38,362 nucleotides of DNA from Microcaldota archaeon (GTDB lineage: Archaea; Micrarchaeota; Micrarchaeia; Micrarchaeales; Micrarchaeaceae). The notes under the pieces were generated by a model. The model searched no databases. It was not told the origin of the DNA and worked only from the letters and a program-made list of their open reading frames with translations. Below are positions 26,155 to 31,313 of this stretch, one piece after another (within the stretch, counting starts at the first letter, position 1; each line of letters starts with the position of its first letter). The position numbers and the translations under genes are program-made. The DNA is taken from positions 1-38,362 of the forward strand of contig JAJYWI010000007.1 of the NCBI GenBank assembly GCA_021791535.1, in the 5' to 3' direction.

Positions 26155-26252
26155 TGCAGGGAGGGAGATTTGTTCACGTGTTTTGAACTCCCGCAGGCCT
26201 AAGCCAACGGATCTTGAGTCCGCCGCGTTTGACCGAGCTCCGCCATCCCTGC
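26155..26252 (-). tRNA. tRNA-Leu (CAA) with a 20-base T-loop (probable short intron)
   Basis: Acceptor GCAGGGA/TCCCTGC, discriminator A73, D-stem GCG/CGC, anticodon stem GCGGA/TCCGT with loop CTCAAGA (anticodon CAA), and a long variable arm with GGC/GCC as in class II tRNA-Leu. The T-stem GGGAG (26188-26192) pairs with CTCCC (26163-26167), but 20 bases lie between instead of 7. They start TTCAAA and end T, so removing 13 bases gives the normal TTCAAAT. Inside, TTCA and TGAA pair around a seven-base loop, the bulge-helix-loop form of non-canonical archaeal introns. A TATA-like ATATCTATAA lies 24 bases upstream (26271-26280). CCA is not encoded. Confidence 0.88.
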
Positions 26253-31206: not shown

Positions 31207-31313
31207 AGCCCAAAGAGGGAATTGAACCCCCGACCTTCTGCTCTACAGGTTCTTGATCAAACATCTTTCAAGAAGCTTACCATGCAGACGCTCTACCACT
31301 GAGCTACTTGGGC
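31207..31313 (-). tRNA. tRNA-Thr (GGU) with a 35-base intron
   Basis: Acceptor GCCCAAG/TTTGGGC with G1-C72 and C2-G71, discriminator U73 as in archaeal tRNA-Thr, D-stem GCTC/GAGC, anticodon stem TCTGC/GCAGA, T-arm GGGGG TTCAATT CCCTC. The anticodon loop reads ATGGTA, intron, A, giving anticodon GGT and the intron at the canonical 37/38 site. The intron occupies 31243-31277. Bulge-helix-bulge: ATGG pairs with CTGT (two wobbles), bulges TAA and AGA are each cut after the second base, and TTCTTGA/TCAAGAA closes the intron stem. It lies 10 bases after the EF-Tu-like gene and is probably cotranscribed. Confidence 0.92.
31243..31277 (-). other. intron of tRNA-Thr
   Basis: 35 bases between A37 and A38 of the tRNA. 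TTCTTGA and TCAAGAA form a seven-pair stem with an 11-base loop. The central helix of the splicing motif contains two G-U pairs, a relaxed form. Confidence 0.85.

Follow-up and report, generated by a model that had tools for sequence, protein, structure and literature searches.

The only tRNA-Leu(CAA) gene found in this genome (26155-26252, minus strand, of the window, by which we mean the whole 38,362-nt stretch analysed) has a T-loop of 20 bases. Our comparison with related sequences indicates that the 13 extra bases are very probably a mini T-loop intron, which would be spliced by an epsilon2 endonuclease and then ligated. A first-pass annotation of this DNA had already proposed a mini-intron, and the proposal is supported by the presence of the insert across the genome's order of Micrarchaeota, by clean absences that leave a normal loop, by a constrained pairing and by the type of endonuclease that the genome encodes.

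The tRNA-Leu(CAA) gene

The gene matches Rfam RF00005 with 44.1 bits, and the Rfam alignment puts the extra bases in the T-loop. ARAGORN makes no call on the unspliced gene and calls it tRNA-Leu(CAA) once 13 nt are removed. Together these results confirm the 20-base T-loop, UUCAAAACACGUGAACAAAU (26168-26187, minus strand; sequence and cmscan alignment). Apart from this loop the cloverleaf is normal, as the first-pass annotation had stated. The acceptor stem is GCAGGGA/UCCCUGC, the variable arm is that of a class II tRNA, and the anticodon CAA (26214-26216, minus strand) lies in the loop CUCAAGA with no intron at 37/38, as judged from the sequence and alignments. The 3' strand of the T-stem, CUCCC (26163-26167, minus strand), faces its partner GGGAG at 26188-26192 in both the sequence and the cmscan alignment. 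The tRNA is 85 nt long when CCA and the 13-nt intron are not counted, and homologues in relatives are about 98 nt long. Removal of the insert restores a standard tRNA, as expected of an archaeal bulge-helix-bulge (BHB) tRNA intron, and homologues that lack the insert are also standard. A second intact tRNA-Leu(CAA), which had been named beforehand as what would count against an intron, was looked for in the genome assembly (741 kb, 25 contigs, 93% complete); none was found besides the copy at 26155-26252.

Inserts also occur in other tRNAs of this genome. A second intron-bearing tRNA, probably tRNA-Thr(GGU) as read by eye, lies at 31207-31313 of the window (minus strand; Rfam, 57.1 bits) and has its insert in the anticodon loop, and inserts in the anticodon-loop region are seen in eight tRNAs of the genome (L023, L025, L026, L028, L092, L093, L096 and L097). 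In the alignments examined no T-loop insert was seen in the genome's other tRNAs, tRNA-Leu(CAA) alone having one.

Distribution of the insert

The search of related genomes shows that the insert is no oddity of a single gene. We surveyed 164 genomes of the order and located the gene in 143 of them, a script parsing 140 copies and the other three being read by eye; because the survey pattern demanded an uninterrupted anticodon arm, any copy whose anticodon loop holds an intron would have been missed. Of these 143 genomes, 135 carry an insert at the same place, 10-21 nt long with a median of 13; the insert-bearing set comprises 134 parsed genes from 51 genera and three further ones examined by eye. 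When 60 relatives were searched with blastn, 59 were matched, and in nearly all cases the matching copy has the T-loop insert. One homologue (L338 in genome G029) has the anticodon loop CTCAAAA rather than CTCAAGA, with a T-loop insert of 12 nt.

The parsed loops begin with UUCAA (UUCGA in one insert-free case) and end with AU; one conservation script accepted only loops that start with UUCRA and finish with AU, the T-arm search pattern fixed similar flanks, and the blastn-found set and the order set, in which the AU end was not demanded, give a matching picture. The insert is far beyond chance, its place and junctions being conserved in the 134 parsed copies of the order. Eight genomes belonging to four genera (G010, G013, G032, G037, G207, G178, G209 and G211) lack the insert, and their loops are the standard UUCAAAU or UUCGAAU. 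Since three of these genera (g3, g6 and g28) hold both insert-bearing and insert-free members, the insert seems to have been cleanly lost on separate occasions. The intron would be old, order-wide, very short (10-21 nt) and cleanly lost in at least four genera.

We also examined the gene in 43 genomes from other families of the same class, reading three (G112, G122 and G164) by eye where the automatic entries were wrong. In most of these an intron interrupts the anticodon loop of tRNA-Leu(CAA), and in about a dozen of the 43 there is, additionally or instead, a T-loop insert at the same place. These inserts measure 31 nt (G060), 44 (G075), 54 (G149), 60 (G111), 86 (G066), 96 (G140), 98 (G062), 122 (G100) and 134 nt (G106), with others seen by eye in G104, G105 and G112, and the one in G111 folds as a clear BHB. 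The mini form is seen only in the order, since none of the wider-class inserts is of 10-21 nt. Given that the longer inserts, found in seven other families, occupy the place of the mini-intron, the latter may be a shrunken form; we infer that the long and short forms share an ancestor, with independent insertion at a favoured site being possible.

Among the loci with longer T-loop inserts (L408 in G062, L243 in G140, L379 in G111, L382 in G060, L400 in G149, L401 in G112 and L404 in G100), hairpins of the CTTTTCTTT...AAAGAAAAG type are common to the T-loop introns L400, L401, L404 and L408 and to the anticodon-loop introns L402, L403 and L388, a resemblance suggestive of related introns that form one family and move from site to site. 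In genome G071 the anticodon loop of tRNA-Leu(CAA) (L373) holds an intron, and the variable arm has an apparent extra insert.

Geometry of the proposed splice motif

In the precursor, G53-U54-U55-C56 (26185-26188, minus strand) would pair with GAAC at 26172-26175 (minus strand), inside the intron, where it takes up the four bases preceding the last four of the loop; in the MFE fold of the precursor GUUCA is paired with UGAAC. The 3' strand of this central helix varies among the 134 genes (GAAC in 98, GGAC in 14, GAGC in 11, GAAU in 10 and GGGC in one). The variants of GAAC occur in 36 genes from 24 genera, and each can still form standard or G-U pairs with GUUC, which is invariant. In 134 of 134 genes the intron strand opposite GUUC is GRRY and pairs with it, giving an exon-intron helix of about 4 bp. 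The pairing of TTCA with TGAA in a bulge-helix-loop (BHL), noted in the first-pass annotation, is therefore real and constrained, and the homologues add to it a covarying inner helix.

This inner helix was assessed from the complementarity of the intron's inner ends at 5' bulges of 0-5 nt, with re-dealt 3' halves as controls. At a 3-nt bulge the complementarity was 1.26 against a control value of 0.96 (sd 0.039; 0 of 1000 shuffles), at 2 nt it was marginal in the full set (p ~0.05), and at 0, 1, 4 and 5 nt there was no excess over the re-dealt controls. When each genus was represented by a single gene (n = 51), z averaged about 6 at the 3-nt bulge and at most 1.4 at other sizes. Shared ancestry does not explain the peak, because a change of register keeps relatedness the same. 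The first inner pair is A-U in 95 of the 134 genes, U-A in eight, G-C in five, G-U in five and C-G in two, and wherever U stands on the 3' side the opposite base is invariably A or G. A plain extended hairpin of UUCA with UGAA, lacking the 5' bulge, was rejected: there is no covariation excess at offset 0, and the U that it requires opposite A57 is missing in 34 of 134 genes.

The covariation places positions 57 and 58 and the first intron base in a 5' bulge, AAA in this genome (26182-26184, minus strand) and AAA in 98 and AAU in 36 of the 134 genes. On the 3' side the putative bulge AAA (26169-26171, minus strand) is conserved, these three bases and the next one reading AAAU in 127 genes, ACAU in five, UAAU in one and AUAU in one. 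It is followed by U60 and C61, which may be unpaired too; pairing of G53 with the intron would make the unpaired run 5 nt long. An inner helix of at least two pairs with a loop of at least 3 nt is found in 33 of 111 distinct loops, and Ca. Micrarchaeum harzensis A_DKE, whose 18-nt insert lies in the loop UUC AAA AUAA UAU UUAU GGAC AAAU, has a full one; the main text of the A_DKE culture paper makes no mention of tRNA or introns. The 3-nt bulge with its inner helix is a property of the order, not of this genome's own copy, where no more than one inner pair can form if the loop is to keep at least 3 nt. The motif here is closer to a BHL, with a BHB in many relatives.

BHB motifs are usually cut behind the second base of either bulge. 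Applied here, this rule predicts cuts at AA|A in both bulges and an intron of 13 nt, AACACGUGAACAA (26170-26182, minus strand), between positions 58 and 59, and the flanks of this putative intron, UUCAA and AU, are invariant across the 134 homologues. The sequence alone permits four placements of the 13 bases. The first-pass annotation chose one of these, after TTCAAA, and comparison favours another, after UUCAA; a cut between 58 and 59 is the best-supported. A cut at 59/60, leaving exons ending in UUCAAA and beginning with U, would be a variant of the splicing reading and would yield an identical mature tRNA in this genome. Known archaeal introns occur at this site (PMC4090602), and the longer introns elsewhere in the class fit a UUCA/UGAA helix whose 3' bulge, AAU, would be cut AA|U. 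We nevertheless regard it as unlikely, given that the order's inner helix covaries in register with bases 57-59 in the bulge and that the intron base opposite G53 is always C or U.

The same hairpin raises a different prospect, that the insert is retained and the mature tRNA has an enlarged T-loop with an extra hairpin, the novel loop shape offered earlier as the alternative to an intron. The near-universality of the insert in the order would suit this, as would the ability of UUC(A) and (U)GAA to pair in the folded precursor. However, such pairing would occupy U54, U55 and C56, the bases that in a normal tRNA join with the D-loop to build the elbow, and both the D-loop GG and the UUCAA/AU flanks remain conserved. 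The covariation fits an endonuclease motif with a 3-nt bulge, four genera have insert-free members with a standard loop, and the inserts of 31-134 nt at this place elsewhere in the class are too large for a plausible retained loop. Retention is therefore very improbable. The idea that the gene is a pseudogene or has been damaged, the true tRNA-Leu(CAA) lying elsewhere, would account for the missing ARAGORN call and can be dismissed almost outright, as all stems are intact, the form recurs in 135 of 143 genomes and this is the sole CAA leucine tRNA found in a genome 93% complete.

The endonuclease and the significance of the probable mini-intron

Splicing of the insert would call for a suitable enzyme. 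The genome has a single PF01974 gene, on another contig than the window, encoding a protein of 386 aa with the Pfam endonuclease N- and C-terminal domains. It matches the ARMAN-2 epsilon2 enzyme (4FZ2/9W2K) over its full length with 562 bits, and in the alignment the catalytic Y236/H251/K282 and the Y160-K161 of the ARMAN-specific loop fall on identical residues (numbering from PMC12397907). A single three-unit protein with the Tyr/His/Lys triad and the loop Tyr-Lys is what defines the epsilon2 type, and by this alignment the genome's enzyme is a close relative of the ARMAN-2 epsilon2 enzyme, which has broad specificity. The broad-specificity endonuclease that the first-pass annotation had linked to T-loop introns is thus present, as its proposed check of enzyme type brings out, although it is not of the Thermoproteales type (PMC6379350, PMC12397907). 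All 42 genomes tested in the order and class have a relative of this enzyme, insert-free ones included, so the endonuclease does not track the insert; a tie between insert loss and loss or change of the enzyme was rejected on these 42 genomes.

We hypothesise that, once the gene is transcribed, G53-U54-U55-C56 pair with the insert's GAAC to form a small BHB or BHL hairpin on the T-stem. The homodimeric epsilon2 endonuclease would cut AA|A after the second base of each bulge, releasing about 13 nt, and a tRNA ligase would join the two exons, restoring the standard loop UUCAAAU and with it a normal elbow. We know of no epsilon2 assay with this tRNA-Leu(CAA) precursor. Other precursors, tRNA-Ile and tRNA-Cys, have been used to test the enzyme, which cuts both BHB and BHL introns in vitro (PMC12397907).

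Archaeal non-canonical tRNA introns are known at T-loop positions 56/57 and 59/60, as in the tRNA-Pro(UGG) of Pyrobaculum islandicum with an intron at 56/57 (PMC4090602). The mini-intron shares with them the T-loop position and a BHB or relaxed BHB motif, and differs in being seen in one isoacceptor, order-wide, at 10-21 nt, in a DPANN lineage and with an epsilon2 enzyme. Lineage and enzyme type are the same as for the disrupted tRNAs of ARMAN-1/2 (Fujishima 2011 and Hirata 2012, as cited in PMC4033280 and PMC6379350), where the enzyme cuts BHB and BHL introns (PMC12397907). A T-loop intron in tRNA-Leu(CAA) was not found in the accessible ARMAN-1/2 literature; Fujishima 2011 may list it. Inserts of 3-24 nt, some of them in T-arms, are reported for nucleomorph tRNAs of Guillardia theta, where removal was shown by RT-PCR, the mechanism being given as unknown (Kawach 2005, as cited in PMC4090602); by that account they are likewise very short, but belong to a eukaryotic nucleomorph.

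T-loop introns, relaxed BHB motifs and a broad-specificity enzyme are already known (PMC4090602, PMC6379350, PMC12397907). What is new is the tiny size of the mini-intron and its retention across an order. We looked in the literature for the size of the shortest archaeal tRNA intron without finding a figure, so we claim no size record. That the intron is kept by selection for a job, such as gating T-loop modification or elbow formation of tRNA-Leu(CAA), rather than as a neutral relic of a longer intron, seems to us quite unlikely. The 134 genes from 51 genera form a large natural series of one very small intron. As an endonuclease-RNA complex has been solved in this lineage (PMC12397907), the series is a good test of the minimum motif that the epsilon2 enzyme needs. 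It also tests tRNA gene finders, one of which is blind to the gene at 26155-26252, and how introns shrink without vanishing.
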